DNA from: Hyphomicrobiales bacterium | GTDB lineage: Bacteria; Pseudomonadota; Alphaproteobacteria; Rhizobiales; Xanthobacteraceae | DNA length: 45,109 nt | Assembly (NCBI GenBank): GCA_021732625.1 | Contig: JAKFUP010000069.1 | Span: 1 to 45,109 of the forward strand | Direction of reading: 5' to 3' | Part shown: piece by piece, positions 1,911 through 18,559 of the stretch | How positions within the stretch are numbered: the stretch's first letter is position 1 | Layout of the letters: the number at the start of each line of letters is the position of its first letter | Position numbers and translations under genes: made by a program | The notes under the pieces: model-generated | Told to the model about the DNA's origin: nothing | The model's input: only the letters and a program-made list of their open reading frames with translations | The model's database searches: none

Positions 1911-1940
1911 ATAGTCTCCGCGACAACCGGGAGAGAGACC

Positions 1941-3050
1941 TTGCAGAATATGTCTGCATGGATGCCTGCGATCTGCGGCCTTGTCCTCGGCGGCGTCACC
2001 GGCTTTGCCGTGCGCCGCGCCAAGCTGTGTTCGTTCGGCGCGATCGAAGATGCGCTGATGGGCGCAGACAGCCGCAGGCTGCGGATCTTCGGGCTCGCTC
2101 TTGGCATCGCCATTCTCGGTACGCAGACACTGATCGTGACGGGCCTCCTCACTCCGGAACTCACGACCTATGTGCCCGCGGCAATTCCGGTGGCCGCGAT
2201 TCTGATGGGCAGCATTCTGTTTGGCATGGGCATGGCCATGGTCGGGACCTGCGGATTCGGTTCGCTGGTGCGGCTCGGTGCCGGCGATTTACGCGGACTG
2301 GTCGTCATTCTCGTATTAGGCGCGGCAGCCTACGCAACGCTGCGTGGCGTGCTTGCCAGCTTTCGGATTGGCGTGCTCGAAAGCATGGCAATCGCAATGC
2401 CCGAAGGCGTTCGGTCCGATATCGCGATGCTGGCATCGCGCGCGTTGGGTGTTGATGCGCGTATCGCGATCGCGCTGATTGCAGGCCTCGGTCTGTGCTG
2501 GCTGGCGCTGCGCGATCCCCGCCTTCGGCGCTCGCCGCGATTGCTGTTAGCGGGAGTAGTGCTCGGCCTTGCCACTGTCGCAGGCTGGATCGCCACAACA
2601 TGGCTCGGCGACGACTTCAGCGGACCGGTCCGTCCGCAAAGTCTCACATTCGTCTCCACGATCGGAAAAGCGCTTTACGCGGGACTGCTCAACGTCAATG
2701 GCCTCGCCGATTTCGGAGTTGGCAGTGTGTTTGGCGTTGTCGCGGGTTCGTGGCTGGCTGCGTGGCACGCCACTGAATTGCGCTGGGAAGCATTCGACGA
2801 CGACCACGAGATGCGGCGGCATTTGATGGGGGCTGCGCTGATGGGCGTTGGCGGCATCCTTGCCGGAGGATGCACGATCGGTCAGGGCATCACCGCCGGA
2901 TCGATGCTCGCACTGTCGTGGCCGCTTGCGGTCGGCGGAATGATTCTGGGCGCACGGATCGGGATCGCGGTTTTGGTCGATGGATCGCCGCGCGATCTCG
3001 TCCAGCGCTTCTGGGCCAATCTGACTGGTAACGCTCGTTCGCAGCAGTAG
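1941..3050 (+). CDS. soxT: SoxT, YeeE/YedE-family sulfur-compound transporter
   Basis: The protein of about 369 residues is almost entirely hydrophobic helices. It has the two hallmark YeeE/YedE segments, MVGTCGFGSLVRLG in the first half and AGGCTIGQGITAGS in the second, each with a conserved cysteine thought to pass thiosulfate or sulfane sulfur through the membrane. It completes the soxSRT order known from sulfur-oxidising alphaproteobacteria. GGGAGAG at 1929-1935 sits five bases before TTG 1941; an ATG at 1950 is fourteen bases away, so TTG is favoured weakly. The product is an inner-membrane protein likely to import sulfur units or signal their presence to SoxR. The substrate is unproven. 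Confidence 0.8.
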   Translation: MQNMSAWMPAICGLVLGGVTGFAVRRAKLCSFGAIEDALMGADSRRLRIFGLALGIAILGTQTLIVTGLLTPELTTYVPAAIPVAAILMGSILFGMGMAMVGTCGFGSLVRLGAGDLRGLVVILVLGAAAYATLRGVLASFRIGVLESMAIAMPEGVRSDIAMLASRALGVDARIAIALIAGLGLCWLALRDPRLRRSPRLLLAGVVLGLATVAGWIATTWLGDDFSGPVRPQSLTFVSTIGKALYAGLLNVNGLADFGVGSVFGVVAGSWLAAWHATELRWEAFDDDHEMRRHLMGAALMGVGGILAGGCTIGQGITAGSMLALSWPLAVGGMILGARIGIAVLVDGSPRDLVQRFWANLTGNARSQQ

Positions 3051-3056
3051 AGCGTC

Positions 3057-3509
3057 TTACGGCCTCAAGTAGGTCCAGCCCTTTTCCTGCAACTCGATCA
3101 GGCGAACCGCACCGGATGGCACGATGGACGCCTGCGATATGATGCTGATGGCCTTGCCTTCGCGCTTTTCCATGCCGTCCTTGGTGTTGCCGCAAGCGGA
3201 AAAAATCACGCTCGACGGAAAGCTGCCGTCCACGATCTGCTTGATCCTGTCCTGTACCGGAGAAGTGTCAGCGCGCAGCATATGCAAACCAGGGCCATAG
3301 GTGACAACTTCGACTTCAACCGTTTCGCCTTTGGATTTGTATTGCTCCATGATGTTCGTGACGTTGTTGAGTGCCAGATTCATCACTGCAGGATCGTTCT
3401 GATCGACTTGAATCGATACGCGATGCGATTTGGTGTCCGCGCCGGAAGCCGGGGCCGCCAGACTAGCCACCATCAGCACAGCCGCCATCGCAAAACCGAG
3501 ATACCGCAT
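3057..3509 (-). CDS. Secreted DsrE-family protein
   Basis: The product is 150 residues with a cleavable signal peptide (residues 1-24, ending ASGA). It is followed by a DsrE/DsrF-like alpha-beta fold with a central VIFSACGNT segment carrying one cysteine, C106. DsrE-type proteins carry or bind persulfide sulfur, and secreted versions without the DsrEFH partners are common near sox genes. The gene is convergent with soxT (six bases between stops) and lies downstream of the second YeeE gene on the same strand. A GGAG about six bases before the ATG supports the start. The partner and reaction are unknown. Confidence 0.75.
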   Translation of the reverse strand: MRYLGFAMAAVLMVASLAAPASGADTKSHRVSIQVDQNDPAVMNLALNNVTNIMEQYKSKGETVEVEVVTYGPGLHMLRADTSPVQDRIKQIVDGSFPSSVIFSACGNTKDGMEKREGKAISIISQASIVPSGAVRLIELQEKGWTYLRP

Positions 3510-3675
3510 GTCGTTCTCCAGCCTGTTCTTGAATTCTTATCTAGCCGCTTTCAGAACGATCCGGCAATTGTGTACGGCATCCCGCGCGGAAGCAGCCGGG
3601 CTATGACGGCATAGTACACATAATAACAGCGGGATGATATCCGCCGCTTCGAACCATTGTCTGAAAGCAGAGCGA

Positions 3676-4725
3676 TTAACGGGTCGCCATTGCCGGCAAG
3701 GCCACAATCCGCCGGACGCCGAGCGCCGCTCCAGTCACGATCCCGGCGACCGCGATCAGCGAAGGCAGGGCCAGCGTCGAAAGCCCGGTCAATCCCTGCC
3801 CGATCGAACAGCCATACGCCATTGCACCGCCGCTTCCCATCAGAGCGGCACCCGAAATCGAGCGCACCATGTGGTTGGCTGACGTGTAGCCTTCGAGTTG
3901 GAAACGGCCGGTCAACAATGACGTCAGCAGGCTGCCGACCAGCACACCGGATACAATCGCGATTCCAAAATTCACCGACAATGCGGTGGACAGCATGGTG
4001 TATTGCAAGGTGTCCGCGATCGGAGCAATGAACGTCAGCGACGTAACAGGAATCGGATTGAAATCGTCGGCGCCAAGCCAGCCCGTCGTTAGCCATCCCG
4101 CCGTCACCAGAAGACCCACGGCAACGCCCGCCGCGATCTGTCCGTATGCGCGGCGAAACTGCTGACTGGAGAAGGCAAAAATCAGGAGTGCGCCACTCGC
4201 GATCAACGCAATGGCGATGCGGGCGGCGCTTTCGCTAACGCCGAGCGTCGACAGCAATGCCGGTGCCGAAACAGCATTCGGGGTGATCTGTGTCCACTGC
4301 AGGAAAGCAAGGCGCGCTGGCGCCAACAATCCCTTCAACGTCATCTGCGCGGTAACGCCGATGATAACCAGAACGACCAGCGACCGCACGTTGCCCTTGC
4401 CCAGCAGGACAAGCGCGCGCGACGCACAGCCGTTGGAAAGCACCATACCCAATCCGAACAGCAAGCCGCCGGCGAACAGAAGCGGCGCTGAAAACGATGG
4501 CTGAAGGTAAATCGACTTGCCGATATCAACGATCCCGGCACCTGCGATAAACTGCGTTCCAAGAATGGCGACCGCGAGCGCGATCGCATAGCTGCGGATC
4601 TTGCGGCTATCGTCAGCAGTCCACCAGTCGCGCAAGCTGCTCAAGAGGCAAAAGCCACTCAGCAGTCCGACAACACCGAACGCCATTCCGATGGCAAACC
4701 CAGCAAGAACTGAAAAATCAGGCAT
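3676..4725 (-). CDS. Second YeeE/YedE-family membrane protein (SoxT paralogue)
   Basis: This 349-residue multi-helix protein has both family signatures, LSNGCASRALVLLGKGNVRS near residue 100 and AYGCSIGQGLTGLS near residue 305. It therefore has the same two-cysteine layout as SoxT but is clearly diverged from it. A GTG three bases upstream (4728) is an alternative start. Some sulfur oxidisers carry two such proteins near SoxR-type regulators, one transporting and one possibly signalling. Here the DsrE-like gene lies between the two, suggesting a sulfur-relay module. Function is inferred. Confidence 0.75.
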   Translation of the reverse strand: MPDFSVLAGFAIGMAFGVVGLLSGFCLLSSLRDWWTADDSRKIRSYAIALAVAILGTQFIAGAGIVDIGKSIYLQPSFSAPLLFAGGLLFGLGMVLSNGCASRALVLLGKGNVRSLVVLVIIGVTAQMTLKGLLAPARLAFLQWTQITPNAVSAPALLSTLGVSESAARIAIALIASGALLIFAFSSQQFRRAYGQIAAGVAVGLLVTAGWLTTGWLGADDFNPIPVTSLTFIAPIADTLQYTMLSTALSVNFGIAIVSGVLVGSLLTSLLTGRFQLEGYTSANHMVRSISGAALMGSGGAMAYGCSIGQGLTGLSTLALPSLIAVAGIVTGAALGVRRIVALPAMATR

Positions 4726-4759
4726 CACGAACCGTCCTCAGCAACGACTGCAAGTCTTT

Positions 4760-4775
4760 GATATCGGTACATATC
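4760..4775. promoter_or_regulatory. GATAT-N6-ATATC inverted repeat upstream of second YeeE gene
   Basis: Five-base arms at 4760-4764 and 4771-4775 are separated by six bases. The same stretch is also a direct repeat of ATATC at 10-bp spacing. It lies about 35 bp upstream of the divergently facing start at 4725 and could be a second SoxR-type operator. The arms are short, so this is tentative. Confidence 0.3.
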
Positions 4776-4831
4776 TAGAGCGTAGCCAGAGAGCGGTCTA
4801 TATTACCGGCAAACTAAGTAAGACGTTCCAT

Positions 4832-4875
4832 GGCGCGATCAGCAGGGGGGTAGATTTGCTACATCCGATCGCGCC
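4832..4875. repeat. Nine-base inverted repeat in intergenic region
   Basis: GGCGCGATC (4832-4840) and GATCGCGCC (4867-4875) are exact inverted copies around a 26-base loop. No T run follows on either strand. It lies in the spacer 4726-5015, which holds no convincing gene. It could be a transcription barrier or a protein site; no role is assigned. Confidence 0.4.
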
Positions 4876-5015
4876 GGGCGTAGATTATTCCCCACCCACC
4901 GAGCGTCGGATGCACTTAAACTGATCGCTCGTGGTTAACCATTGCGGTGAAGTCGCCGCTGGCAGCAAACTCTTTCACGATCCCGTCGGAAAAGTCGGTC
5001 GAATCGGTTTGATCG

Positions 5016-5402
5016 TCAGAAATCGACAACGGGAGTCTCCGGCATATGATTTTCGAACAGAACCCAGAATGACGAGCCGAGCCGTTCGATATACCCAGCC
5101 TCGAACTTTGCCAACGCAGCAAGGACGTCAACTTCGGGCGGCTCTGATTCTTTGGGAGCCTGGTTTACGAAAATCGCAACGGCGACTGGAGCGAAGTCGG
5201 ACAGCGTTGCCTGCAGCGCCGCGCTGTCACTTGACCAGTTCAGTGCGTTGCGCATCACGGTCAATGCATTGGCGACCGCAATTTCCTCGCTTTGTGCAGA
5301 CCCAACGCCGTCAGATACGGCGCGCATGAAATTAAAGCGCCGATAGGCGAATTTACGTTCCTGCTCGATCAGTTTCCGCCGCTCGACGATTTCCCTTTGC
5401 AA
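5016..5402 (-). CDS. Conserved hypothetical protein downstream of selC
   Basis: About 128 residues: a charged N-terminal helix (residues 1-20), then the patterns SEEIAVANALTVMRNAL and FWVLFENHMPETPVVDF at the C-terminus. I recall similar hypothetical proteins in Bradyrhizobium relatives but no function. There is no ATG in frame after the upstream stop. The only usual start is TTG at 5402, and the coding pattern appears to extend a few codons further upstream, so the true start may be altered or lost. It is the last gene of the fdh-sel strand, about 95 bases after tRNA-Sec. It could be a relic, but the C-terminal part looks whole. Confidence 0.5.
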   Translation of the reverse strand: MQREIVERRKLIEQERKFAYRRFNFMRAVSDGVGSAQSEEIAVANALTVMRNALNWSSDSAALQATLSDFAPVAVAIFVNQAPKESEPPEVDVLAALAKFEAGYIERLGSSFWVLFENHMPETPVVDF

Positions 5403-5474
5403 TTCAGCTTCGGCAGCATCGGCATGCCGCGTCGCCGATTGAAGCGTGCATAGAGAAAGAAGGATTCACTGCGA

Positions 5475-7544
5475 TCACACTACGCTCCTCGAAGATGGCG
5501 GAAGAGAGAGGGAGTCGAACCCACCAAGAACCGTCTCGCGGCCCTTCCCGGATTTGAAGTCCGGACGCCCCACCAGGAACGTGTCTCTTCCAGATTGGCT
5601 TGATATCTGCTCGCCCGATATGGAACGAAACAGATCCAGCCGATGCTTGTTCATACGTCTCAGATCACCGCGCCTGATCGTCACTCCATGACGATCGAAG
5701 AAATCGAGTATCTGGATCGCAACCTTGCGCCCGTTGTCCAGACGGTCACGGAGCTGCGCAGCGCTGAATTCACCCTTGGGTACGACGCTTGCGATGTCGA
5801 GTGCAATCGCAACCATTTCGCTGACCGTGCTGCGCAGAAAGAAGTGATCCTGCGCGACCTCATCGACCTTGCCCATCCGACCGAGCAGTTTGAACAGACG
5901 GCGGACTTCGCTTTCCGCGACGACAAGTATGCCGGCAATGTCCCTTACTCGTGGCGGCCGGAAACGCTCCGCGTCCGAAATCAGCGGCTGGATTCTCACC
6001 CAGAGTTTTTCGTCAGGCGGGGTTAGCCGCACTTCATGGCCGGCCAGCCGCACCCAGGCGCCGTCAAGCCCCACCTCGCCTTTCTTGGCGAGGCTCTGAA
6101 GAAATCCAGAGAATGCCGGCGCGGGCAACCGTGGCGTTAGTTGCAGACGAAGTTTCTCAAGACCGATACCGGGCTGGTCAGGACTATTGGCATGAAAGGC
6201 TTTAAGCAAAGCAAGCAGATCGGTCTTCAAACGGAGCCGTGTCGATGGGGCCAAACCGAGCTCGCCAACAGCCGAGGCAATACGCAGCACCGACGTTTTC
6301 TCGATCAGATCCGCCGTCTGCGTTTCGCTAAGCGCGCGATCGCGAATAAACGACGACAGATCGACAAACCACGGCGGCGCATCGAGCAACGCTTTGAGCG
6401 TTTGCGCAGGGTCTTGCAGCACAAGCGCCTGGAGCTGCGCCACACGCTCCGGCGTCCTGCGCTTGCGTGCGGGCGCACGCAAATCGAGAAAGGATCCGCC
6501 GCCAATGGTGCGTTGATCCGTGGTATCTCTCACCACATACCGGTCTCCGGCTAAAGCCGCGATCGGCTTCTCCAGCACCAACTGAACAAACGCAGTATCG
6601 CCGGGCTTAACTGGACCATCGTCAAGCAACACAATCCGCGCGGCGACATGAGCCGCGCCATGATAGAGTTGCACCGGCATCCACTGGCCGACCGGCTTCA
6701 CCTCAGCGCTCAGCAAACGCAGCGTGGCATCAATACGATCGGCCGGCGCATGAACACTGGAGTCGAGAATGACATCGCCACGGTTGATGGCATCCTTGGT
6801 GATCCCATCACCAGCTAGATTCAGCGCACAGCGTTGGCCGGCATGACCACTTTCGCTCGACTGATTCTGCGCATGGATCGAACGGACCCGCGCGGTTAGT
6901 CCCGAAGGACTGATAGTCAAACGGTCGCCCACTGAAACCGCGCCTGACAGCACGGTGCCAGTAATTACAGTGCCAGCACCCTGCAGCACAAACGAACGAT
7001 CGACCGAAAGGCGAAAACGTCCCCGCTCCGAATCTCGCTTCAAGACGCTCGACAGCTCGAACAACCGGCTGCGCAGATCGGCGATACCCTCGCCTGTCAC
7101 GGATGAAACCGGAACGATCTCAGCATCAGCCAGCACGGTGCCGGTCAGCGCCTGCCGGATACTGGCGATAATGCCGTAGCGCTCGTCGGGAGGCACCACA
7201 TCGATCTTCGTCAACGCAACGATACCACTTTTGATCTGGAGCAAATCGACGATCGCCAAATGTTCCCTGGTTTGAGGCATCACGCCGTCGTTGGCGGCGA
7301 TGACGAGCAAAGCAAGATCGATCCCGGCCACGCCAGCCAGCATATTGTGCACGAAACCTTCGTGACCGGGCACGTCGATAAAGCCCAAAACCGATCCATC
7401 CGGCGCGGACACATAGGCGAAGCCGAGATCGATCGAAATGCCGCGCGCTTTTTCTTCCTTGAGACGATCAGTATCAACGCCAGTAAGTGCCTGCACCAGC
7501 GAGGTCTTGCCGTGATCGATATGTCCCGCGGTTCCGACGATCAT
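5475..7544 (-). CDS. selB: SelB, selenocysteine-specific elongation factor
   Basis: The reading frame encodes 689 residues. The N-terminal GTPase has P-loop [10 protein letters not shown] (residues 8-17), DVPGHE and a TKID specificity motif. EF-Tu-like barrel domains follow, with the region containing [10 protein letters not shown], then C-terminal winged-helix repeats that bind the SECIS hairpin. SelB delivers Sec-tRNA to UGA codons followed by a SECIS. Its ATG overlaps the stop of the upstream Sel1 gene (ATGA). Oddly, codons about 652-683 are the tRNA-Sec gene read through as protein, so the last 38 residues are probably a non-conserved tail. The core is intact and looks functional. Confidence 0.93.
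5496..5591 (-). tRNA. selC: tRNA-Sec(TCA), inside the 3' end of selB
   Basis: On the minus strand the gene has an 8-bp acceptor stem, GGAAGAGA paired with TCTCTTCC, then discriminator G and an encoded CCA (5498-5496). The anticodon arm is CCGGA-CTTCAAA-TCCGG with anticodon TCA at 5557-5555. A long variable arm and a TTCGACT T-loop follow. The 8-bp acceptor, long variable arm and UCA anticodon define selenocysteine tRNA. All 96 bases lie within the selB reading frame on the same strand, so maturation of the tRNA from the operon transcript would cut the selB message. Confidence 0.95.
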
Positions 7545-8335
7545 ATGGCCGCTTCCATTTCGGGACGCTCAGCCAATTGTTCAGCATCGGCGATTTGCTC
7601 AGCAGTCAAACTGCGGCGCGCGGACGGAATGACCGGGTCTGCAAGGGAACTGCCGTTATTCCGTGCCCGGACCAGCAACGCCAGACCGCGAACAGGATCG
7701 CGCACAACACCTGCACCCAGATGGTACGCGGCTCCGAGCATAGCCTGTCCGTCGGCATCGCCGGCTGACGCGGCTTTTGTCCACCATTCCGCTGCGCGGG
7801 ACGGATCGCGCTCGACATCGATAGCGTTGTGATAAATCATCCCAAGTCGCGTCATCGACGACGCGATGCCTTGCTCGGCCGCAGCAATGGCCCAGCGCTG
7901 CGACTCCGAACTATTGAAAGGCATCACTTCGCCCTCGAGCAGCATCCAGCTCAGCATGTCTTGCGCCGCAGCGTCGCCAGCCTCCGCCGACAAGCGGTAG
8001 AGTTCGGCTGCATGGTCGAAATCGGTCGGAACGCCTTGCCCCTTGAAATAAAGCGCTGCCAGATTCCGCCGCCCGGCCGCGTCGCCGGCATCGGCCGCGA
8101 GCGTCAGCCATTTGACTGCGAGCCCATCGTCACGAGGAACACCGATGCCATCGGAAAAACAGGCTCCGATGCCGCTCTGGGCTTGCGCCACGCCGGCATG
8201 CGCAAGCGGTTCCCATAATTCGAGTGCGGTTGCATGATCGCCATGCCGGAACGCCTCATCGGCAAGCGCCAGAATTTCCGCGTGATCGAGCGGAGGCTCG
8301 CTCTGTTTTGGGACCAGACGCTTAAGCCACTGCAT
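7541..8335 (-). CDS. Sel1-repeat (TPR-like) protein between selA and selB
   Basis: The 264-residue protein contains about five Sel1-like helical repeats from residue 40 to 220. Examples of the pattern are ACFSDGIGVPRD, ALYFKGQGVPTD and AAYHLGAGVVRD, each followed by an A-WWxKAA-type helix. There is no signal peptide, so it is probably cytosolic. Sel1 repeats mediate protein-protein contacts; the name is unrelated to selenium. It overlaps selA by 14 bases and selB by the ATGA junction, so it is translated with the Sec machinery and may act with it. An alternative start at 8356 would deepen the overlap; 8335 (MQWLKRL) is preferred. The role is unknown. Confidence 0.8.
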   Translation of the reverse strand: MQWLKRLVPKQSEPPLDHAEILALADEAFRHGDHATALELWEPLAHAGVAQAQSGIGACFSDGIGVPRDDGLAVKWLTLAADAGDAAGRRNLAALYFKGQGVPTDFDHAAELYRLSAEAGDAAAQDMLSWMLLEGEVMPFNSSESQRWAIAAAEQGIASSMTRLGMIYHNAIDVERDPSRAAEWWTKAASAGDADGQAMLGAAYHLGAGVVRDPVRGLALLVRARNNGSSLADPVIPSARRSLTAEQIADAEQLAERPEMEAAI

Positions 8336-9740
8336 CGGTACCGCTCCGCACATCAAGCTTTTTCAGGTTGCTCAGGAAACCGGCCTCATCCTCAAGGCAA
8401 CGCATATCAAGCACCAGACGCTTATCTGCGACATGGCCAATCACAGGCACCGGCAATCGTCGAAGTGCTGCGGAAAGATCGCTGAGCGCGCGGCCTGATC
8501 CGGATGAACCTCGCGCGCCGCAAGCCAGACCAGCGCTAGCCATCCCTTCAAGCGGCAATGCACCCGACCCGATCTGACTGGAGCAATCGATCACCTTGAC
8601 TACAAAACGATCGCCGAGCCACGCCGCCAGAGCCGGCGCAATCCGTTCAGCTTGCGCTCGAATATCAACAGCCTTCCGCGCAAGGAAACGCAACGTTGGC
8701 ACACGTTGCGCGAGCCGATCCGGATCGCGGTAAAGCTTCAGCGTCGCCTCAAGTGCGGACAACCTGATTTTGTCGACGCGCAGCGCGCGTTTCATGGGAT
8801 TGGCGTTAAGCCGCGCAATCAGATCTTTGCGGCCGACGATAAAACCCGCTTGCGGACCGCCAAGCAACTTGTCGCCAGAGAACGTGACGAGATCGGCGCC
8901 TTCAGCGACAGCCTCGGCAACGGTGGGCTCGTGTTTCAGTCCGAAGCGTTTCAAGTCGATCAACGTACCGGAGCCGAGGTCGTTGACGACCGGAACCTGA
9001 TGCTTGCGCGTCAATGCAACAAGAGCACTCGGCTCAACCGCCGCCGTAAATCCTTCGACGCGATAGTTCGAGGTATGAACCTTGAGAACCAGACCGGTCT
9101 TTGGTCCGATCGCGGCTGCAAAGTCCTTCTTGTGCGTACGGTTCGTGGTGCCCACTTCGACGAGCTTTGCACCGGCTCGTGACATGATCTCCGGCATCCG
9201 GAACGCGCCGCCGATTTCAATCAGTTCACCGCGCGAGACGATGGCGTCGCGACCTTTAGCAAAAGTATTGAGTACGAGAAGCACTGCCGCCGCGTTATTG
9301 TTGACAACCGTGGCGTCCTCCGCGCCAGTCAGCTCGCACAGCAGATCGCGCATGTGATCGTCGCGTTCGCCTCGCTTGCCGCCGTTGACATCGAATTCAA
9401 GCGTCACGGCATGGCGCATCGCCTGCACGGCCGCATCGACAGCCACATCGGCTATCAGCGCGCGTCCCAAATTGGTGTGAAGTACGGTACCTGTAAGGTT
9501 AAACACCGGGCGAAGGCTGGAGCGATCCTCAATCTCCAGACGCCCGAACGCGGCGGACGCAATACGGCTGGAGTCGGACAACACCAGCTTTTCCGCACGC
9601 GCCTCGGCCAATGTGGCGCGAACGGCACCCACAACTGCCTGGTGACCAAAGCGATCGACCGCAGCCAGCGCAGGAACGGTTTTCAAAATTTCGTCAACCG
9701 ACGGAAATCGCCGGGGATTTCTCTCTTCGATCTGCGACAT
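8322..9740 (-). CDS. selA: SelA, L-seryl-tRNA(Sec) selenium transferase
   Basis: This 472-residue PLP enzyme converts seryl-tRNA(Sec) to selenocysteinyl-tRNA(Sec) using selenophosphate. The family patterns are present: NLTGTVLHTNLGRA near residue 80, VNNNAAAVLLVLNTFAKG near 145, and the PLP-lysine motif TFSGDKLLGGPQAG near 295. Length matches the family (about 460-475). It starts eight bases after the fdhE remnant stop and overlaps the Sel1 gene at its end, so it sits mid-operon. No lesion is visible. Confidence 0.95.
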   Translation of the reverse strand: MSQIEERNPRRFPSVDEILKTVPALAAVDRFGHQAVVGAVRATLAEARAEKLVLSDSSRIASAAFGRLEIEDRSSLRPVFNLTGTVLHTNLGRALIADVAVDAAVQAMRHAVTLEFDVNGGKRGERDDHMRDLLCELTGAEDATVVNNNAAAVLLVLNTFAKGRDAIVSRGELIEIGGAFRMPEIMSRAGAKLVEVGTTNRTHKKDFAAAIGPKTGLVLKVHTSNYRVEGFTAAVEPSALVALTRKHQVPVVNDLGSGTLIDLKRFGLKHEPTVAEAVAEGADLVTFSGDKLLGGPQAGFIVGRKDLIARLNANPMKRALRVDKIRLSALEATLKLYRDPDRLAQRVPTLRFLARKAVDIRAQAERIAPALAAWLGDRFVVKVIDCSSQIGSGALPLEGMASAGLACGARGSSGSGRALSDLSAALRRLPVPVIGHVADKRLVLDMRCLEDEAGFLSNLKKLDVRSGTDAVA

Positions 9741-9748
9741 GGCCGACC

Positions 9749-9964
9749 CTAATAGCCAAGCAGATAGGGATTGAAGGCGCCACGCCGATAACCCGCTTCC
9801 CTGACCAGCATGTCCAGCCCAAGCGTCGCAACATCGTCTGCAATAGGCTCCAGAGATGCCCGATTTTCAAAGAGGACGACGGGATCGGGAAGAACGGCAA
9901 ATGGAGGCTTGGAAACGTCCCCGATCGGAACAGGAATATTCAGCGGTGTTTTAGTCTCACTCAT
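9749..9964 (-). pseudogene. fdhE: fdhE remnant with large in-frame internal deletion
   Basis: The frame is open for 71 codons but joins two distant parts of FdhE. Residues 1-37 match the N-terminus (NIPVPIGDVSKPPFAVLPDP). Residues 38-71 match the extreme C-terminus (EPIADDVATLGLDMLVREAG, ending FNPYLLGY). FdhE is normally about 300 residues, with central CxxC zinc/iron motifs needed for formate dehydrogenase maturation; all of these are missing. The join lies near 9853. The open frame might yield a short peptide, but FdhE activity is not expected. It precedes selA by eight bases. Confidence 0.85.
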
Positions 9965-10039
9965 TCTCAAACCTCACGAACCCTCCGGGCCACGTGGAGA
10001 TACCGCACCTGCCGGAAGACCGGCGCGGTATAGATGATG

Positions 10040-10330
10040 TCAGTGCCGCGTTACAAGGTCACGCAGCCACTTGCGATGGTGGCGCCACGCCCAACCGCCA
10101 GTTACCTGGCCCCTGGTCATGGCACTGATGGTGCCTCGCACCCAGATCGCAGCATAGACATGAACGATCCAGACGCAAATCGCCGATACGGCGGCAAACC
10201 ATGAACCAGCACAGGGATGCGCTTCTGCCGTAATCCAGTGGTTGAGGCGTGCACCCTTGGTGTACCGATCGACCTTGACGGGATCACCGGGATGAACGCC
10301 GTCACCAGGGGCAATGTTCGCGTCGCTCAT
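10040..10330 (-). pseudogene. fdhI: fdhI (formate dehydrogenase gamma/cytochrome b556) remnant
   Basis: The open frame of 96 codons fuses an N-terminal piece (VDRYTKGARLNHWITA, residues 20-35) to a C-terminal piece (AICVWIVHVYAAIWVRGT, then GGWAWRHHRKWLR). The normal gamma subunit is over 200 residues, with four membrane helices and haem-binding histidines. Most of that core is missing between about 10222 and 10186, so haem and quinone binding should be lost. Its ATG overlaps the stop of the fdhH fragment (TAATG), which preserves the original operon junction. Confidence 0.85.
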
Positions 10331-10617
10331 TACTTCTGCCCTTCTGCTAGCCGCTTCGCAGCCTCTTCATCTTCGCGCGAGACCTTGTTGGGTCCGGAGA
10401 CGACGTGATGAAGGAAGCCGAGCGCCGCGAAAGCACCGATCGCCGCAAGGCCAGCGTACTTAACCGCACCTTTCCAGACCTCGACGAGGGGGCTGATGGT
10501 GGGGTTATTCGGAAGACCAGCATAGACCTGCGGCTTGTCCGCGTGATGCCGAACGTACATCACATGGGTTCCGCCGACACCCGGAGGATCGTAGAGGCCC
10601 GCGTTCTTGTCACCCAC
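10330..10617 (-). pseudogene. fdhH: fdhH (formate dehydrogenase beta, iron-sulfur subunit) C-terminal fragment
   Basis: Only the last ~95 residues remain: AGLYDPPGVGGTHVMYV, then ISPLVEVWKG, a single membrane helix (AAIGAFAALGFLHHVVSG) and a charged tail. The ferredoxin-like domains with four [4Fe-4S] clusters are absent. The fragment is joined directly, out of frame, to the truncated alpha gene near 10610-10625. A GTG at 10617 opens the frame by chance. Loss of the clusters rules out electron-transfer function. Confidence 0.85.
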
Positions 10618-11116
10618 GCCGTTTCATTGGTGGTCGCAGATGCCGCGAGGAAACCGGTTGAGGTCCAACGGTTCACCGTTGTGCCGTCGTTGTTTTTCTC
10701 AACGAGGTTGGCGTCCCGTTCGTCCTTCATCAGGCGAGCGATGCGATCAAGTGCGATGTCCCAGCTGACGCGCTCGAACTTGTTCGAGCCCGGTTTGCGG
10801 ATCATCGGAAACTTGAGGCGCGCCTCGGCCTTGACGAAGTCGAGCAGCGCCGAACCCTTCGGGCACAACGTGCCGCGGTTGGTCGGATGATCAGCATCGC
10901 CCTCGATGTGGATCAGTTCAGCTTTCTCGCCCTTCTTCAGATCGCCCTTGAATTACATCACAACGCCACAGGCGACGGAGCAGTAAGGGCATGTATTTCT
11001 GGTCTCGGTCAGGCTGGCGAGTTTGAATGGACGAATCCAAAAGCACCGACAGTTGTTCCAGCAAGACCCGCGCCTGCGCCCTTCAAGAAGTGGCGCCGCG
11101 AGAGCTCCATATTCAT
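10609..11116 (-). pseudogene. fdhG: fdhG (formate dehydrogenase alpha, selenoprotein type) N-terminal remnant
   Basis: From ATG 11116 the sequence reads a twin-arginine signal (SRRHFLKGAGAGLAG). A frameshift near 11020-11035 follows, then in another frame RPFKLASLTETRNTCPYC with the [4Fe-4S] cysteines (TCPYCSVACG). An in-frame TAA lies at 10955-10953 where a tyrosine codon is expected. After that come LCPKGSALLDF and the stretch down to ATTNETAW, where it breaks into fdhH. About four-fifths of the molybdenum/tungsten enzyme is missing, including the region that normally carries the Sec or Cys residue. The gene is dead. Confidence 0.88.
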
Positions 11117-11271
11117 TTTCCGTTTCTCCCCGGACACGTGCCCCGATGCTGCAATAGCGTTGCCCTATCTCGCAATCGCCTGTTCCGCATTTCTCAGGGG
11201 TTTTCGGGTGCCCGTGGGGGCGCCAAAAGCACGCATTGACGCCAAAGCTCCAGTAGCTACAAATCGTCGCT

Positions 11272-11925
11272 GTGGCGCAAGCTAACGCTCCCGCGGGGCG
11301 GGGCTCACATTACTCGTCCATTACATCGACGATTTTCAGCTTCAGCCTCGCGTTATCCGCGGGGTTGGCTTCGTTTTGTTTTGCCACCAAAGCCGAATCG
11401 CTTGAGCCTGCAAAGCTGACGGCATGGACGGGTGGCTCCAAACCTGCCTTCGTGCTGGACGATCTCCATAAGACGAAAGTCTCACTCAATCTTCCCCCTT
11501 CTCCTCAGCCACACCATGAGGTCGTGATCGTTCACTTCTTCGCGACATGGTGCGAACCATGTCGCGAAGAGCTTCCGGCGCTGCGTCGTTTGGTCGAACG
11601 CACCGATCCCAAGCGCTTGCGGCTTATCACCATCTCGGCGGGCGAGGTCGATGTGCGGGTCCGCAACTTCGTCGAAAAATTACCGGTCAATTTTCCGATC
11701 CTGCTCGACCGCGATCGCGGCGTCGCACGCTCTTGGGGTGCCTTAGCCCTGCCGACAACCTTCGTTCTCGATCGCGATTTGCGCCCTCGCCTGTTCGTCG
11801 AGCGCGACTACGACTGGGATCAATCCGGCGTTTCGGCTTTTCTGAAATGGTACGCCGCTGAGCAAACCGGCGACCCGCCCTTCGACAACAACACAGCAAT
11901 CACCACGACGGGGAAAACACCATGA
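11272..11925 (+). CDS. TlpA-like periplasmic thioredoxin
   Basis: The product has an N-terminal hydrophobic segment (FSFSLALSAGLASFCFA), then a thioredoxin domain with the CEPC site in FFATWCEPCREELPAL and a cis-Pro ALPTTFVLDRD. This is the TlpA/ResA type, a periplasmic thiol-disulfide reductase. There is no in-frame ATG. GTG 11272 is the first possible start, without a visible ribosome site, so the native start may have been lost. Its stop overlaps the ATG of the transglutaminase remnant (ATGA). It faces the fdh remnants divergently. The domain is complete; expression is uncertain. Confidence 0.65.
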   Translation: MAQANAPAGRGSHYSSITSTIFSFSLALSAGLASFCFATKAESLEPAKLTAWTGGSKPAFVLDDLHKTKVSLNLPPSPQPHHEVVIVHFFATWCEPCREELPALRRLVERTDPKRLRLITISAGEVDVRVRNFVEKLPVNFPILLDRDRGVARSWGALALPTTFVLDRDLRPRLFVERDYDWDQSGVSAFLKWYAAEQTGDPPFDNNTAITTTGKTP

Positions 11926-12669
11926 CCTTTCATCGCCGCGACATCCTCAAGGAATGCGCTTCTATTGTAGCATTGGCCACCTTTCCTCGTTCGGCTCAGT
12001 CGCAGCATTTTGCGCCCCAACCTGGCTCATGGCGGCAGTTCGAAATCGTAACTCGTCTTGAGATCGCATGGCCGGAAGGTAAGGTGCAGGCGTGGATACC
12101 TGTTCCCTCCGTGAACGAGGCGGACTGATTCAGATCGGCCGCAAGCACCTGGACTACAAACGGCAATGCGTCTCTCAAGCGCGATTCAAAATACAATGCA
12201 GGCTTTGTTCAACGCGCTCTATGTTGGCCTGGCGCGCGCGGCGGGCCTCCCGGCCCGCGATGTCTATGGCATCCGGGTCGCGCCGTCGAAACTTGGATAC
12301 AAAAGTCTCGGCACGGGATCGGCGACGATCACAAAGGCACAACACTGCCGCGCCGAGGTCTATCTCAGCGAATTCGGTTGGGTGCCGGTCGACCCTGCCG
12401 ATGTCCGAAAGGTGATGCTTGAAGAGCCGCCGGCCAACCTTCACCTCGATCACCCGAAGGTAATCGCAGCGCGCACCGGACTGTTCGGCGCATGGGAAGG
12501 CAACTGGCTCGCCTACAACTTTGCTCACGACATCACATTGCCGGGAGCAAGCGGGCCGTTGCTGGAATTCCTGATGTATCCTCAGGCCGAGACCGCGGCA
12601 GGCCGCCTCGATTGCCTCGACCCCGATACGTTCAAGTATACGATCGTCGCAAGAGAACTCAGTGCGTGA
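11922..12669 (+). pseudogene. Exported transglutaminase-like protein, deleted and interrupted
   Basis: The head (11922-12128) carries a signal (FHRRDILKECASIVALATF) and WPEGKVQAWIPVPSVNEAD, then a TGA at 12126-12128 where tryptophan is expected. Reading continues in frame as FRSAASTWTTNGNASLKRDS and then joins, out of frame near 12190-12210, the C-terminal part starting NALYVGLARAAGLPARDVYG. The catalytic-cysteine segment that normally precedes NALYVGLARA is missing with over 100 residues. The tail retains KAQHCRAEVYL (catalytic His region) and FGWVPVDPADV. Point nonsense plus deletion makes this a clear pseudogene. Confidence 0.85.
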
Positions 12670-12672
12670 TAC

Positions 12673-12918
12673 ATGGTCACGATGAAACAAAGCGACGATA
12701 CCGTTCTTGATCTTCGCGGCATCCGCTGTCCTCACCTGGTGCTGCGGGCCAAGAAAGTATTGCGCGGAATCAAGGTCGGCGGAACGCTGGTGATGGAGTG
12801 CACCGATCCGCTGACCGTCATCGACGTGCCGATCTTCGTCAATCAAACCGGACATCTCCTATCCGAGCAGAGCAAGCACGACGAGCTTTTCATCGTCAAG
12901 ATCGTGAAGCTGCACTGA
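12673..12918 (+). CDS. TusA-family sulfur/selenium carrier
   Basis: This 81-residue protein has the compact TusA fold: LDLRGIRCPHLVLRAKKVLR with the active cysteine C19, then TLVMECTDPLTVIDVPIF. The usual CPxP motif is CPHL here, so the second proline is replaced while the acceptor cysteine remains. TusA proteins accept persulfide from cysteine desulfurases and pass it on; next to a desulfurase and selD it may instead handle selenium. Its stop overlaps the next start (TGATG), indicating coupling. ATG 12682 is an alternative start. Confidence 0.8.
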   Translation: MVTMKQSDDTVLDLRGIRCPHLVLRAKKVLRGIKVGGTLVMECTDPLTVIDVPIFVNQTGHLLSEQSKHDELFIVKIVKLH

Positions 12919-14106
12919 TGTTAGACCAGAACGCGAGCCAGCCCGTCTATCTCGATTACAATGCGACGACACCTGTCGATCCTGAGGTGCTCGATGCAAT
13001 GTTGCCGTATCTTCGCGGCGAGTTCGGCAATCCGTCGTCGTCCTATCCGCTCGGCAAACGGGCCCGCGCGGCGATTGAAACGGCGCGCGCGCATACTGCG
13101 GCATTGATCGGTACGAAGACTGACGAAATCGTTTTCACCAGTGGCGGCACCGAAGCCAGCAACATCGCCATCCGAAGCAGTGCACGACAAAACGGCGAAC
13201 GCCGTTCGATCGTCAGCACCAACATCGAGCATCCGGCGACCGATGCCTGTTGCGACGTTCTCGCAGGCGGCGGATTCGAGATACGCCGCGTCAGGGCCCG
13301 TTCGGACGGCATCGTCGATCCAGCCGGCTTTCGAAATCTGATAAATTCATCAACCGCGATCGTCACCGTTATCCACGCGCAGAATGAAATCGGAACGTTG
13401 CAACCGATCGCGGAAATCTCTGAGATCGCGAAAAATCACGGCGCGATCGTTCATGCCGACGCCGCACAGTCCGTCGGCAAAGCCGCAGTCAATGTTGATA
13501 GCATGGGTGTCGATTTGCTATCGATTGCGGGCCACAAGCTTTACGCGCCAAAAGGCATCGGCGCACTCTATGTCCGTCAAGGACTGGACGTTCCATCGAT
13601 CCTCTCCGGCGCCGGTCAGGAACACGGACGGCGTCCTGGCACCGAGAATGTTGCATTCATCGTGGCTCTCGGCGAAGCGAGCCGGATCGCGGCTGAAAAG
13701 CTCCAGAGTAATATCCAAAACATGAAAGCTGTATCCGACGTACTGCTGAAACGCCTGAGCGCAGGCGTTCCCGGTCTCGAACTGGTTGGTCACCCGGAGC
13801 AACGACTACCGAATACGCTGAATGTTCTTTTCCCTTCGGTATCAGGCCGCGAATTGCTTGAGATGTGCCCGCAAGTGCTTGCCTCCAACGGGTCCGCCTG
13901 CCACGCTGATCGCGAAGAAGCATCCGCAATCCTCACCGGAATTGGTATCGATCCTGACCTCGCGCTCGGCGGTACGTTTGTCCGTCGGGCGCGATACAAC
14001 AATCGCCGATGCGGAAACAGCTGCCACTGCACTTGCCGCCGCATGGCGGGAGCTTCAACGATCCCATCCGAATAACAGAACCGTTTTTGCCACAGGGGCC
14101 AGATGA
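12918..14106 (+). pseudogene. NifS-like cysteine desulfurase with C-terminal frameshift
   Basis: The class V aminotransferase core is intact: YLDYNATTPVD, TSGGTEASN, PLP lysine K207 in AGHKLYAPKG, RPGTEN, and catalytic C328 in SNGSACHA. After residue 350 (DPDLALG, about 13970) the frame shifts. As written it reads on to a stop at 14075 with basic, unrelated sequence. The other frame continues the family C-terminus (VRLSVGRDTTIADAETAATA) and stops at 14106, overlapping selD by ATGA. Loss of two bases in GGCGCGGT explains this. The enzyme would supply sulfur or selenium from (seleno)cysteine; activity without the last ~45 native residues is doubtful but not excluded. Confidence 0.75.
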
Positions 14107-15155
14107 TGAACGTTCCGCAAGTGCGGCTGACCAGCCTTGCCCATGGCGGCGGATGCGGCTGCAAGCTGGCGCCTTCAATGCTTCAGCAACTTCTGTCGGG
14201 TCATCCGACCGTCAATCCCTACAAGCAGTTGCTAGTCGGCATCGAGACCGGCGACGATGCAGCGGTCTGGGAGCAGGACGACGGCACCTGCATCATCGCA
14301 ACCACCGACTTCTTCATGCCAATGGTCGATGACCCGCACGACTTCGGCCGCATCGCAGCTACCAATGCCATCTCCGACGTTTATGCCATGGGCGGCACGC
14401 CGATCATGGCGTTGGCGATCCTGGGTATGCCGGTCGACAAGATCGCACCTGATGTCGTGCGCATGATCCTCGAAGGTGGACAAGCGATCTGCAAGACCGC
14501 AGGGATTCCAATTGCGGGCGGTCATTCGATCGACTGCCCGGAGCCAGTCTACGGGCTCGCAGTGATCGGGACTGCTCGCAAGGAGCACATTCGTCGCAAT
14601 GCCGATGCCAAACCCGGTGATGCCATTATCCTGACGAAACCGCTCGGCGTTGGTATCTATTCGGCAGCGATCAAGAAAGCGGTCCTGCCTGCAGGCGGTT
14701 ATCCCGATATGATCGCCACGACGACGCATCTCAACCGCATCGGCACAACGCTGGCAAAGGACCCGTCCGTCCATGCCATCACCGACGTGACCGGCTTCGG
14801 CTTGCTCGGACACGGACTGGAGATGGCGCGCGGTTCGGATGCAACGCTGGTGTTCGACATCAAGGCATTGCCATTTCTCAAGGAGGCGTCAGCGCTGGCG
14901 CAGCAAGGCTGCGTTACGGGAGCATCTCATCGCAACTGGGCGAGCTATGGCGCGAACATCATGCTGCCGATTGGTCTAGCGGAATGGCAGCAACACCTGC
15001 TCACTGATCCGCAAACCTCAGGCGGTCTGCTTGTGTCGTGCACACCTGATCGCGCGCAAGACATCCTGCAAACGATTCAGAACGATGGCTATTCGTTCGC
15101 GCGCATCATCGGCCGTGTCGAAGCCGGCCCTCCGGTTATCAGGGTTGAAGCGTAA
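14103..15155 (+). CDS. selD: SelD, selenide-water dikinase (selenophosphate synthetase)
   Basis: About 350 residues. The active-site loop is HGGGCGCK; numbering from the second ATG (14106) puts the catalytic cysteine at 17 and lysine at 20, as in E. coli. This is the Cys form, not the Sec form. Further family patterns are [13 protein letters not shown] (metal/ATP-binding aspartates), [25 protein letters not shown] and [17 protein letters not shown]. It makes selenophosphate for SelA (and for selenouridine modification). No lesion is seen, in contrast to the gene just upstream. Confidence 0.95.
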
Positions 15156-15223
15156 AGGTCGCACCAAAGCAGGGAACATACCCTGGTTACCGTCATTGTT
15201 ATCCATTATTCATGGAGAATATA

Positions 15224-15445
15224 ATGGCGATCCGTATTCAGACGTTGCTTGTCGCAGCCTTCACGTCCAACTCCGGGTAATGCCGGTTCAACGGGCTGGA
15301 GTGGTAGCGGCATGGGTGGGTCCTACACGGGAACATCTTCAAACGCTCCGATGCCTGGCTCAAAAACCGAACATCCCGAAACGGTCAAGGTCTCAATCCA
15401 AGCACCGCTGGCAGCGGAGCAGGATCGACAACGCAGTCTCGTTAG
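15224..15445 (+). pseudogene. Small secreted glycine/serine-rich protein gene with paired frameshifts
   Basis: GGAG at 15213-15216 precedes ATG 15224. The first 18 codons (MAIRIQTLLVAAF, a short signal-like stretch) end at TAA 15278. One frame over, the coding pattern resumes as NAGSTGWSGSGMGGSYTG and SKTEHPETVK. It then slips back to the original frame for GLNPSTAGSGAGSTTQSR and TAG at 15443. A single-base insertion near 15277 and a single-base loss near 15390 would explain everything, because start and final stop are in the same frame (73 codons). Function unknown. Confidence 0.6.
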
Positions 15446-15490
15446 ACGCGAGACTAAAAAACAACCAGCCATCGCTGCAGACAACTCAGC

Positions 15491-15529
15491 AAGGACGTTT
15501 CGGACAACCAGGAGCGTCCTTTTTCTTTT
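15491..15529 (+). terminator. Rho-independent terminator
   Basis: AAGGACG (15491-15497) pairs with CGTCCTT (15515-15521), with a 17-base loop, followed by TTTTTCTTTT. It lies downstream of selD and the broken small gene and should end transcription of that plus-strand unit. Confidence 0.8.
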
Positions 15530-15739
15530 GTAGATCGCCGCCCTATCGTGCGCCAATGAGCGCGGTGATTGATAGCAAAATGCTGAAAACACAGTCGCTC
15601 CACACCCTCTCGATGGAATGCCCGCCCGGCATATTTGTCCGTACCACTTTAAGGACGATCCGTATAAACAGCGGCTTGGCTGCATGTCGGCGTGCGGCCC
15701 GACGATTACGCTAGTCACGAGAACATCGGCACAACGCGA

Positions 15740-16687
15740 ATGACTGACGGCATAACTAAACAAAAACTGCCGGTAGTCAGCCTCGCATCCGGATACGCTT
15801 CCGGGCTGATCATGGCGCTTGGAGCATCGATCTCGTTTGCTGCCGCGCGCGCTGGCATCCTCGGCGGTTTAGCACCCGACGACATGATTTTTGCCCGCTA
15901 CGTTGTTGCCGGCTTAGTGATGCTTCCGTTTCTCATCTATTGGGGACTGCCGACCCTTGCCGGGATCGGATGGCGTCGCGGCCTCGCGTTGCTTGTCACC
16001 GGCGGACCGTTATTCGCGATTCTGCAAACCGGAGGCTACGCCTTCGCGCCACTGGCGCACGGTGCGGTCATAGCTCCCTCAACGGTCACAATCTTGAGTA
16101 CGATTGCAGCCGGTGTTTTCCTCGGAGAGGTCTTGACCCGCTCACATATTGCCGGCGCGGCTTTGGTTCTCGCCGGAATCCTGATGATCGGCTGGCAGGG
16201 AATTGCACGTGCAACACCGGGCGAGACCGCATGGATCGGCGATTCATTGTTCTTTCTGTCCAGCGTTCTTTGGGCAGGATTCACAGTACTGATCCGCTAT
16301 TGGCGGCTTGACGCGGTTCGGGCGACGTCCGTTGTTGCGGTGCTTTCACTTTGCGTCGTCGTACCGGGCTATCTTTTATATCGGGGCGTCGATCATCTCG
16401 TAAGCTTACCCATGGGACCACTTGTCTTTCAGGGCGTCGTCCAGGGACTGGTCCAGTCGGTCATAACATTCATGGCCTACAACCGTTCGATTGCAGTTCT
16501 AGGCGTAAGCCGCGCCGTGCTATTTCCTGCGATCGTGCCGGCAATGACTGTTCTGATCGGAATTCCAGCACTCGGCGAAGTCCCCAACGCGCTTCAAACG
16601 GCAGGGCTTGTTACAGTCAGTATTGGAATGCTCGTGGCGGTCGGCGCTATGAATCGCATACTGTTTCGGTCAAAGCCGCCGACGTAA
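15740..16687 (+). CDS. EamA/DMT-family transporter
   Basis: This 315-residue inner-membrane protein has about ten hydrophobic helices arranged as two EamA repeats. The first contains SISFAAARAGILGGLAPDDMIFAR-type sequence and the glycine-rich end of helix 5 (LVLAGILMIGWQG). The second ends with LGEVPNALQTAGLVTVSIG. The family exports small metabolites or amino acids; the substrate cannot be read from sequence. The ATG at 15740 is chosen over GTG 15692 because the family N-terminus begins near it. It is convergent with malQ, eleven bases apart. Confidence 0.85.
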   Translation: MTDGITKQKLPVVSLASGYASGLIMALGASISFAAARAGILGGLAPDDMIFARYVVAGLVMLPFLIYWGLPTLAGIGWRRGLALLVTGGPLFAILQTGGYAFAPLAHGAVIAPSTVTILSTIAAGVFLGEVLTRSHIAGAALVLAGILMIGWQGIARATPGETAWIGDSLFFLSSVLWAGFTVLIRYWRLDAVRATSVVAVLSLCVVVPGYLLYRGVDHLVSLPMGPLVFQGVVQGLVQSVITFMAYNRSIAVLGVSRAVLFPAIVPAMTVLIGIPALGEVPNALQTAGLVTVSIGMLVAVGAMNRILFRSKPPT

Positions 16688-16698
16688 AGTCGACTTGC

Positions 16699-18435
16699 TC
16701 AGCTCCGGCCGGTCATGGCAGATGTCAGGCGCTGGATATCGATTCGCTCCGCGAACAATTCAATACCGACGGGCAATTTCCTGCGCCAGTTCGGATGCTC
16801 ACCGATCGTACCCGGGATATTTGGTTGTTCCTCGATCCCCAACAGATCCTCAATGCCGATCGCAAGGAGGCGAGAAGGAGATTTTGCGAGCTCTGCCATC
16901 ACCGTCAGGAAATCGACCTCCATACTCCCATCAAGCCCCACGCGACGGCGCAACGCATCTTTTGCCGCGCGGCGATCGTCTGCGCTTTCGCCGGGATCGA
17001 TCCCGAGTTTTTGCTTCGTCGCGATGTCCCAACCCGTGTGCCAGCCCTTGAACGTCGCGAGATCGTGAGTGTTGAAAGTGACGAGCGAATTGCTGCGGAA
17101 GTCCGCGGGGGCGATAAACCCTCCATCGTTCCGCTCGAACATCATCACTGTGTACGACAGGATTCCGCGACTCTTGAGCTGGTCTCGAAGCCCGTCCGGC
17201 ACAGTCCCCAAATCCTCACCGATCACAATACACCTGAATTGGTGACTCGCCTCCGCAATCACGCCGGCCATCTCTTCGAAAGGCATGTCGATATAGACGC
17301 CATCGCGCGCCGACACTCCGTGAGGGATTAAAAATATCCGCCGCAACCCCATCACATGATCAAGCCGGATCGCGCCTGAATAGCGCATCCCATTTTCCAA
17401 AATATCCCGCAACGGTTCGAAAGATCGTAACCGCAGGCCCGGCCCTGAAAAGCCCGACAGCCCCCAGTCCTGTCCTGCGGTATTCAGCGCATCCGGCGGA
17501 GCGCCGACCGACAACGAGCGGGAAATAGCGGCCTGCTCATACCAGGAGTCAAACCCTCCGGCCTGAACTCCGACGGCGACATCCAGATACAATCCGATTT
17601 TCATACCTGATCGCCTTGCAGCGTCGGCGCACTCCGAGAGCTGCTGATCCGCGATCCACTGAGTAAATTCCACGAAGTGGATTTCGTCAGCATACTCGCC
17701 GGATCGCAAGGTATAGATCAGGTTTCCGGAAGGTCGCTGCCATTGTTCTGGCCAATCCCACCAGACGGATGAGAATTGTTTCCGCAACACCTCGAAGCAT
17801 GAGAAATAGCGAAGTGAACGACCTCGGCGTCGGCAAAATGTCGCAAAGCTTTCGCGACGATGAGCGTCGGGCTCTGCGTTGAACGTCCGAAACGCCTCTC
17901 GCGCGGCGGCACGCTTCAAAAGCGCCACAGTCTCATAATCGACAAGCTCGGATTGTTTTGCGCGTGCTAATTCATCGGCACGCGCATCGATCCACCCCTT
18001 CGGCAGCTCTGGAACATTTGACCAGTCAATGTAGAGAGTATTCAAAAACAATCTGCTGTTTGGTGCATATGGACTGCACTCAGTTGGCCGGTCATCGAAT
18101 AAAATATGAAGCGGATTCAAACCAACGCCGGCGCATCCCCACCTCCGGGAGAGTGCGATAAGGTCTCTCAAATCGGAAAAATCGCCGATGCCCCAATTGC
18201 GGTCACTGCGAAGACTGTACAACTGACACGTGAGCAACCACAAACGACCGAAATCGCCTTGAAAGGCGACCTTCCCCTCGTGAGCGATCGGCGTGTGATT
18301 TTCAGCCGAGATTTGTTGCGAAAGCGCTACCAAAACGGCCTGCAGCACTGAGACGTCAGCAGGGCGATGGTTCCCGTTTGCATCGAGATATTCGGTATGA
18401 ATTCCGGCGGCGCGAGCGGTCGCAAAGACGTCCAC
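16699..18435 (-). CDS. malQ: MalQ, 4-alpha-glucanotransferase (GH77)
   Basis: The 578-residue cytosolic enzyme shows GH77 landmarks: NWGIGDFSDLRDL near residue 80, SPYAPNSRLFLN, the nucleophile region AIRLDHVMGLRRIF, IVIGEDLGTVPDGLRD with the acid/base glutamate, and FNTHDLATFKGW. It disproportionates malto-oligosaccharides and would recycle short chains released by debranching and phosphorolysis. It is transcribed away from the glgE operon; the 124-bp spacer contains an EcfG-type promoter that faces the other way. Confidence 0.9.
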   Translation of the reverse strand: MDVFATARAAGIHTEYLDANGNHRPADVSVLQAVLVALSQQISAENHTPIAHEGKVAFQGDFGRLWLLTCQLYSLRSDRNWGIGDFSDLRDLIALSRRWGCAGVGLNPLHILFDDRPTECSPYAPNSRLFLNTLYIDWSNVPELPKGWIDARADELARAKQSELVDYETVALLKRAAAREAFRTFNAEPDAHRRESFATFCRRRGRSLRYFSCFEVLRKQFSSVWWDWPEQWQRPSGNLIYTLRSGEYADEIHFVEFTQWIADQQLSECADAARRSGMKIGLYLDVAVGVQAGGFDSWYEQAAISRSLSVGAPPDALNTAGQDWGLSGFSGPGLRLRSFEPLRDILENGMRYSGAIRLDHVMGLRRIFLIPHGVSARDGVYIDMPFEEMAGVIAEASHQFRCIVIGEDLGTVPDGLRDQLKSRGILSYTVMMFERNDGGFIAPADFRSNSLVTFNTHDLATFKGWHTGWDIATKQKLGIDPGESADDRRAAKDALRRRVGLDGSMEVDFLTVMAELAKSPSRLLAIGIEDLLGIEEQPNIPGTIGEHPNWRRKLPVGIELFAERIDIQRLTSAMTGRS

Positions 18436-18498
18436 GGAACCTCCTCAATCGCAAGCCGCAGTATTTAGAAACGTGCGTCCGGATGCTGGGTTCCATCG

Positions 18499-18524: not shown

Positions 18525-18559
18525 GGTGACTATTGGTTTCAGCAAACGGGGCAGCATCC

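Follow-up and report, generated by a model that had tools for sequence, protein, structure and literature searches.

Probable recent decay of a selenocysteine-type formate dehydrogenase operon beside intact selenocysteine genes in a Hyphomicrobiales genome

The stretch of DNA analysed here, called the window, is a whole contig (C8; 45,109 bp) of G000, the draft genome of a Hyphomicrobiales bacterium (3.77 Mb in 256 contigs, 90.6% complete). Its minus strand carries the remains of fdhGHIE, an operon for a formate dehydrogenase (FDH) of the type that contains selenocysteine (Sec), followed by selA, a Sel1-repeat gene, selB and selC, the gene for tRNA-Sec. Sequence comparison makes it probable that this Sec-FDH operon died recently, through ordinary deletion-driven decay after replacement, beside sel genes that are still needed.

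This reading starts from an intact counterpart. At the same locus, G001, a genome of the same genus, holds fdhG (1026 amino acids, with UGA at codon 200), fdhH, fdhI, fdhE, selA, the Sel1 gene, selB and selC, all intact. Its operon (G001:C5:30293-35979) was the reference for a gapped alignment, the comparison that a first-pass annotation of the window had proposed, and from this the deletion endpoints were mapped; most of C8 can be aligned to G001. Window positions 9749-11116 retain 1368 of the 5687 bp of the fdhG-fdhE stretch, with 76% missing.

The lesions are of several kinds. The alpha-subunit gene, fdhG, retains codons ~1-27 and ~39-178 of 1026. Its frame is shifted by a 34-bp deletion at 11037/11036, between two ATTCG repeats, and a TAC codon has become an in-frame TAA at 10955-10953. 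A functional Sec-FDH operon has a full-length alpha subunit with an active-site UGA; here, codon 200 is deleted and the frame broken. A single deletion of 3207 bp at 10616/10615 joins fdhG codon ~178 to the last ~95 codons of fdhH. In fdhI, ~34 N-terminal and ~62 C-terminal codons are left, of which the final 51 are still in their original frame; losses of 374 bp (10228/10227) and 1 bp (10198/10197) have produced one open frame of 96 codons. In fdhE, a net deletion of 702 bp (9859/9858) joins ~39 codons to ~35 in frame, giving an open reading frame of 73 codons. Thus, fdhH, fdhI and fdhE are reduced to ~95, ~96 and ~74 codons, and each of the fdhI and fdhE remnants can be read in one open frame, while the fdhG remnant cannot. 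The TAATG junction between fdhH and fdhI is retained at 10332-10328. Upstream of fdhG (11147-11222), the intergenic DNA is altered as well, with 189 and 52 bp missing and 51 bp new. Measured against the intact orthologues of this locus, such lesions are disabling, as in a cluster of pseudogenes.

Much of this had been read from the DNA before any alignment. The first-pass annotation had described the frameshift and TAA in fdhG, its fusion to the last ~95 residues of fdhH, the preserved TAATG and an fdhE of 37 plus 34 residues, and the alignment bears these out, the fdhE counts closely. It was right that the head of fdhG is kept, although ~167 residues align rather than ~190, and right about the ~35-residue head of fdhI; its ~50 residues for the fdhI tail correspond to the part in original frame, the whole tail being longer.

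It had also remarked that gene starts and stops are preserved while interiors are gone, and had suggested that this could mark a deletion mechanism, or selection to keep the operon's spacing for the sel genes. The pattern does describe fdhI and fdhE, and 6 of the 8 gene ends in the operon are retained. It does not describe fdhG and fdhH, where one deletion runs across the gene boundary. In 200,000 trials that gave deletions of the four observed sizes random positions in the operon, those of 702 and 374 bp both came to lie within single genes in 56% of placements. Loss of gene middles is therefore mostly what deletion size leads one to expect, and needs no explanation. The retention of six ends, which occurs in 3.6% of random placements, is uncommon and suggestive, although the statistic is post hoc.

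A dedicated mechanism would take out gene middles by way of repeats, mobile elements or end joining at preferred sites. Several large deletions within a 5.7-kb operon, two further interior ones elsewhere on C8 and the 5-bp direct repeat at the 34-bp deletion (P 0.015) are what it might account for. That deletion, however, is alone in having such a repeat. The first-pass annotation had suggested looking for 4-12 bp of microhomology at each junction; the three large junctions, judged on G001, have 0-2 bp, the level of chance (P 0.61-0.66 each), and one large deletion covers two genes. As explanations of the large junctions, microhomology and repeats were rejected, since neither exceeds chance there; on the junction sequences, with no search made for mobile elements, a mechanism of this kind is highly improbable.

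A draft genome can, of course, also lose sequence in assembly. Here, the true genome would have an intact operon, its interiors removed by collapse or chimeric joins. The assembly is in 256 contigs; constraint still seems to act on the fdhH and fdhI remnants, with dN/dS against G001 of 0.065 and 0.087; and some well-conserved genes on other contigs also look frameshifted, which makes base-level errors possible (the genome-wide frameshift reading, noisy because the simple gene caller takes in antisense frames, is not used as a count). Against this, the G001 operon as a DNA query of the 3.77-Mb assembly returned, at the sensitivity of that search, remnants only and no interiors, and the idea that these sit on another contig was rejected. 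The ends joined at the large junctions, again judged on G001, share no long overlaps, and the nonsense and 34-bp lesions are independent of them. DNA comparison set 33 G000 stretches of 20 kb, plus C8 and C15, beside 1.26 Mb from G001, in which most of the 33 lack a long partner; of the 17 gaps of at least 60 bp in the 153.7 kb aligned on eight other G000 contigs, not one is an interior deletion leaving at least 100 nt of one gene on both sides. Genes for this classification were called by a simple in-house script, antisense frames included.

Private amino acid changes, counted at columns with at least five outgroups, bear on the same question. In the fdh remnants (418 columns), G000 has 24 and G001 has 6; in selA, selB, selD and the Sel1 gene (1736 columns), the counts are 52 and 36 (Fisher P 0.048). 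The transglutaminase-like gene, damaged as described below, has 18 and 3, and adding it to the remnants gives 42 and 9 (P 0.005). This excess of lineage-specific changes would favour real, recent decay over assembly collapse, and an assembly fault is unlikely.

The intact genes have dN/dS values against G001 of 0.063 (selA), 0.082 (selB), 0.060 (selD) and 0.053 (Sel1 gene); the fdhG and fdhE remnants stand at 0.194 and 0.243. Constraint thus appears relaxed on this lineage, by the private changes and by the higher ratios of fdhG and fdhE, which fdhH and fdhI do not share. Together, these data point to relaxed selection in the G000 lineage with a recent onset. Because the fdhH and fdhI ratios are as low as those of intact genes, the decay must be very recent.

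Selection might, alternatively, have shaped what is left. In a miniature operon, short open frames would keep transcription and translation coupled into selA while cutting cost. The six gene ends kept (P 0.036), the open, fused frames of fdhI and fdhE, the TAATG junction and the stubs of fdhE found before selA in two other loci (L146 and L143, below) are compatible with this. But fdhG loses its frame after ~27 codons and carries a TAA, so that translation does not pass through the remnant; two in-frame outcomes arise by chance about once in nine; the L146 stub is frameshifted and has lost its stop; and only the 3' end of fdhE recurs, in 2 of 28 stretches. Selection for such an operon is quite unlikely. 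It is likewise doubtful that the remnants are a retained regulatory leader of selA-selB-selC, in which interior deletions were fixed for shortening the operon while the short frames and the fdhE tail keep expression going. That the short proteins are conserved as such was rejected, as the relatives fetched carry full-length genes.

Selection to preserve spacing fares no better in its original form, for the spacing is lost (4.3 kb gone). A narrower form stands, and concerns the end of fdhE beside selA. Most of 11 relatives have a GAGG- or AGGAGG-like stretch, likely the selA ribosome-binding site, either overlapping the fdhE stop or following it (for example TGAGGCGGCCATG; by eye). The G000 layout resembles that of the relatives and G001 is shorter, again by eye; an adaptive 6-bp insertion before selA was rejected on this comparison, in which the longer spacer looks ancestral and G001 shortened. 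Stubs of fdhE were then sought, at E 0.05 or better, in 28 stretches upstream of selA where the fdh operon is lacking: those of 26 loci, and those of G017 and G021. Three fdh-less loci (L099, L108, L117), where selA lies at the locus edge, were left out. A stub directly precedes selA in two. That of L146 (9838-9969) covers fdhE residues 266-309, with its frameshift further up; that of L143 (about 2209-2241) is the last ~10-11 fdhE codons with stop and GAGG. In L132, the last few fdhE codons are possible by eye, with no match at E 0.05. Such stubs would support a local constraint from selA, not the preservation of operon spacing.

Why, then, would the sel genes remain? G000 has selA, selB, selC and selD, all present and intact, and thus the complete trait for decoding Sec. 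The selC gene is contained in the selB reading frame, at its 3' end, in G001 as in G000. Genome-wide there are one SelA match and one SelD match over cut-off, both in the window, two selB and two tRNA-Sec matches above 70 bits. A third tRNA-Sec match (C48, 47.1 bits) is barely over its cut-off of 47, has an equal in G001, and is taken for another tRNA. The second selB and second selC lie on C15, together with a GrdB/PrdB-like gene that has one in-frame UGA; neither selA nor selD gave a match over cut-off on that contig. C15 belongs to this lineage, as its positions 1-6865 align to G001 at 85-88% identity. Positions 6866-20000 (L049), which hold the second selB, the tRNA-Sec and the UGA gene, have no long DNA match in G001; DehI-like and type II haloacid dehalogenase genes and a sodium/solute symporter lie in the same region.

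The C15 gene matches PF07355 (46.6 bits, cut-off 22) and, below cut-off, the PrdB model TIGR04483 (166.7 bits, cut-off 300). The family match runs up to the UGA and homology continues after it, aligning the UGA with that of a homologue in G005 at 34%. Ten of 61 genomes have PF07355 matches. In the four of these ten where the active-site residue was checked, UGA is found in G000 (C15) and G005, and cysteine (Cys) in G000 (C48), G001 (C11) and G032 (C5). Frame-checked comparisons leave out L150 and L154, where the frame check failed, and L152, where it was unclear. As G000 has a single SelA and a single SelD, both in the window, a second selenoprotein predicted on C15 would depend on them, and this client is probably the reason why they have been retained. 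The loci G017:C44 and G021:C289 carry selA and selC with neither a close Sec-FDH match nor a PF07355 match.

A candidate for the replacement lies on C35 (L236, G000:C35:10001-27344). Here, the alpha subunit of an FDH-like cluster, a 988-residue open reading frame, has Cys where G001 fdhG has Sec (HQARICH against NQARVUH, by eye). Genes for an FeS protein, a cytochrome b and a moeA-like protein and an fds-type FDH follow, several of them named by eye. No orthologue of this alpha subunit was found in G001, where the best match is 32% over residues 76-447; all matches there are at 26-46%, the highest being short pieces of the Sec fdhG. G017 and G005 have an alpha subunit of the C35 type at 73%.

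These pieces suggest a history. If formate oxidation is covered by the Cys-type FDH, selection on fdhGHIE, and on some neighbours, would have been relaxed, and this redundancy is the likely cause of the operon's death. The operon would then have decayed through the independent deletions, nonsense mutation and small indels that the alignment reveals. Deletions running on into selA-Sel1-selB-selC would not be tolerated because these genes, with selD, would still make and insert Sec for another client, probably the C15 gene. What remains of fdh would be chance survivors between deletions, apart from the 3' end of fdhE, which its place next to the selA ribosome-binding site may have protected.

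Several observations weigh against this history. The counts behind the Fisher tests are modest, and the tests overlap each other. The dN/dS values of the fdhH and fdhI remnants are no higher than those of intact genes, and several large deletions are many for so short a time. Six gene ends are more than random placement commonly leaves. C8 has the most atypical tetranucleotide profile among the G000 contigs profiled (distance 14.1; others 4.3-12.3). For C35, whose own profile is typical, the 20 kb tested showed no flank resembling G001 and yielded five short DNA matches to it, and contamination of the bin (estimated at 2.89%) is possible. That the C15 gene encodes a selenoprotein is a prediction; the RNA downstream of its UGA, where a bSECIS hairpin would be expected, folds weakly (z -1.3, with 24 of 200 shuffles folding at least as well), and since a Cys homologue exists in G000 (C48) and G001, the UGA version need not be essential.

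The wider family shows what the locus usually looks like. The order fdhGHIE-selA-selB recurs in eight other family members fetched, two of which lack a match to the Sel1 gene. Among 79 selA loci from the genome collection (G001's own, L071, included), 46 have all four fdh genes at more than 75% coverage, 26 have none and seven have part. Three of the seven (L080, L081, L084) are apparently cut by a contig end; L122, L132 and L146 have only a divergent fdhG-like match (25-31%), besides the fdhE stub of L146; and L131 has a 31% fdhH-like match.

On the other side of the FDH operon, the plus strand carries thioredoxin-like, transglutaminase-like, TusA-like and NifS-like genes and selD. C8 differs from G001 by ten gaps of at least 60 bp, four of them interior to genes: those of fdhE and fdhI, one in the transglutaminase-like gene at 12211, and one of 394 bp at 31382 in a nickel-permease-like gene (31171-31458). 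Within the DNA sampled, C8 stands out in these interior deletions. An open NicO-family gene lies at L050:1899-2591. The NifS-like cysteine desulfurase gene (12921-14075) has an apparent frameshift near 13970 relative to G001, and ~6.2 kb at 35845-42051 is extra in G000, not being at the same place in G001. Over the gaps counted, which are unpolarised, G000 is shorter in 27 and longer in 5. The features of the window are collected in Table 1.

Table 1. Features of the window discussed in the text, with the evidence for each.
Feature	Positions	Strand	Evidence
fdhG remnant (formate dehydrogenase alpha; Sec form in G001)	10616..11116	-	alignment to G001:C5
fdhH remnant, last ~95 codons	10330..10615	-	alignment; 91% amino acid identity over residues 218-310
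fdhI remnant, head and tail	10040..10330	-	alignment; NCBIfam formate-dehydrogenase gamma models match tail only
fdhE remnant, head and tail	9749..9970	-	alignment; FdhE tail match 268-305/305; 3' end abuts likely selA ribosome-binding site
selA, intact	8322..9740	-	TIGR00474, 574.6 bits; sole SelA match found in genome
Sel1-repeat (TPR-like) gene, open	7541..8356	-	PF08238
selB, intact	5475..7544	-	TIGR00475, 424.6 bits
selC, tRNA-Sec, anticodon tca	5496..5591	-	tRNA-Sec match
selD, intact, no in-frame UGA	14103..15155	+	sole selD match over cut-off in genome
Transglutaminase-like gene, 346-bp interior deletion at 12211	11922..12669	+	gapped alignment; PF01841 in intact G001 copy
1195 bp missing (DsrE-like and unknown gene of G001), 50 bp in place	4893..4944	.	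alignment to G001

The intact operon is of the FDH-N/O type. The known system closest to the window is the Sec-FDH operon fdhGHIE-selA-selB-selC of related Hyphomicrobiales, represented by the G001 locus: gene order, orientation and flanking genes are the same. G000 differs from it in lacking 76% of fdhG-fdhE and in having no complete subunit.

Elsewhere, genes of the Sec trait and FDH are often close together or in one operon (PMC5029168). According to a survey from 2006 (PMC1794560), each selenoproteome studied included either FdhA or SelD, and Sec-decoding organisms without FdhA had a Sec-containing SelD. G000 appears to keep the trait with neither, its fdhG being dead and its selD having no in-frame UGA; the GrdB/PrdB-like gene is the one candidate client found there, no full selenoprotein search having been made. 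The locus may thus be a snapshot of how a bacterium swaps a selenium FDH for a cysteine FDH without losing Sec, and what maintains the Sec trait becomes a testable question within one genus.

Head-and-tail remnants of an fdh operon are named in no title among the literature matches listed, which is not proof of their absence. The decay itself looks to be of a known kind, caught part-way. In a study of Salmonella by Kuo and Ochman (PMC2916853), bacterial pseudogenes that decay under deletional bias are alike in their nonsense, frameshift and deletion lesions and in apparent recency; G000 differs in that all four fdh genes have lost more than half their length while the adjoining sel genes are kept. 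The breakdown of the Sec trait in Yersinia pestis (PMC1273633) offers another parallel, for there too one lineage has a UGA-bearing and a Cys FDH and a recent, partial loss. The two are broken on opposite sides, however: in Y. pestis selB is a pseudogene and the UGA-bearing fdh stays, whereas in G000 the fdh operon is broken and the Sec machinery stays.
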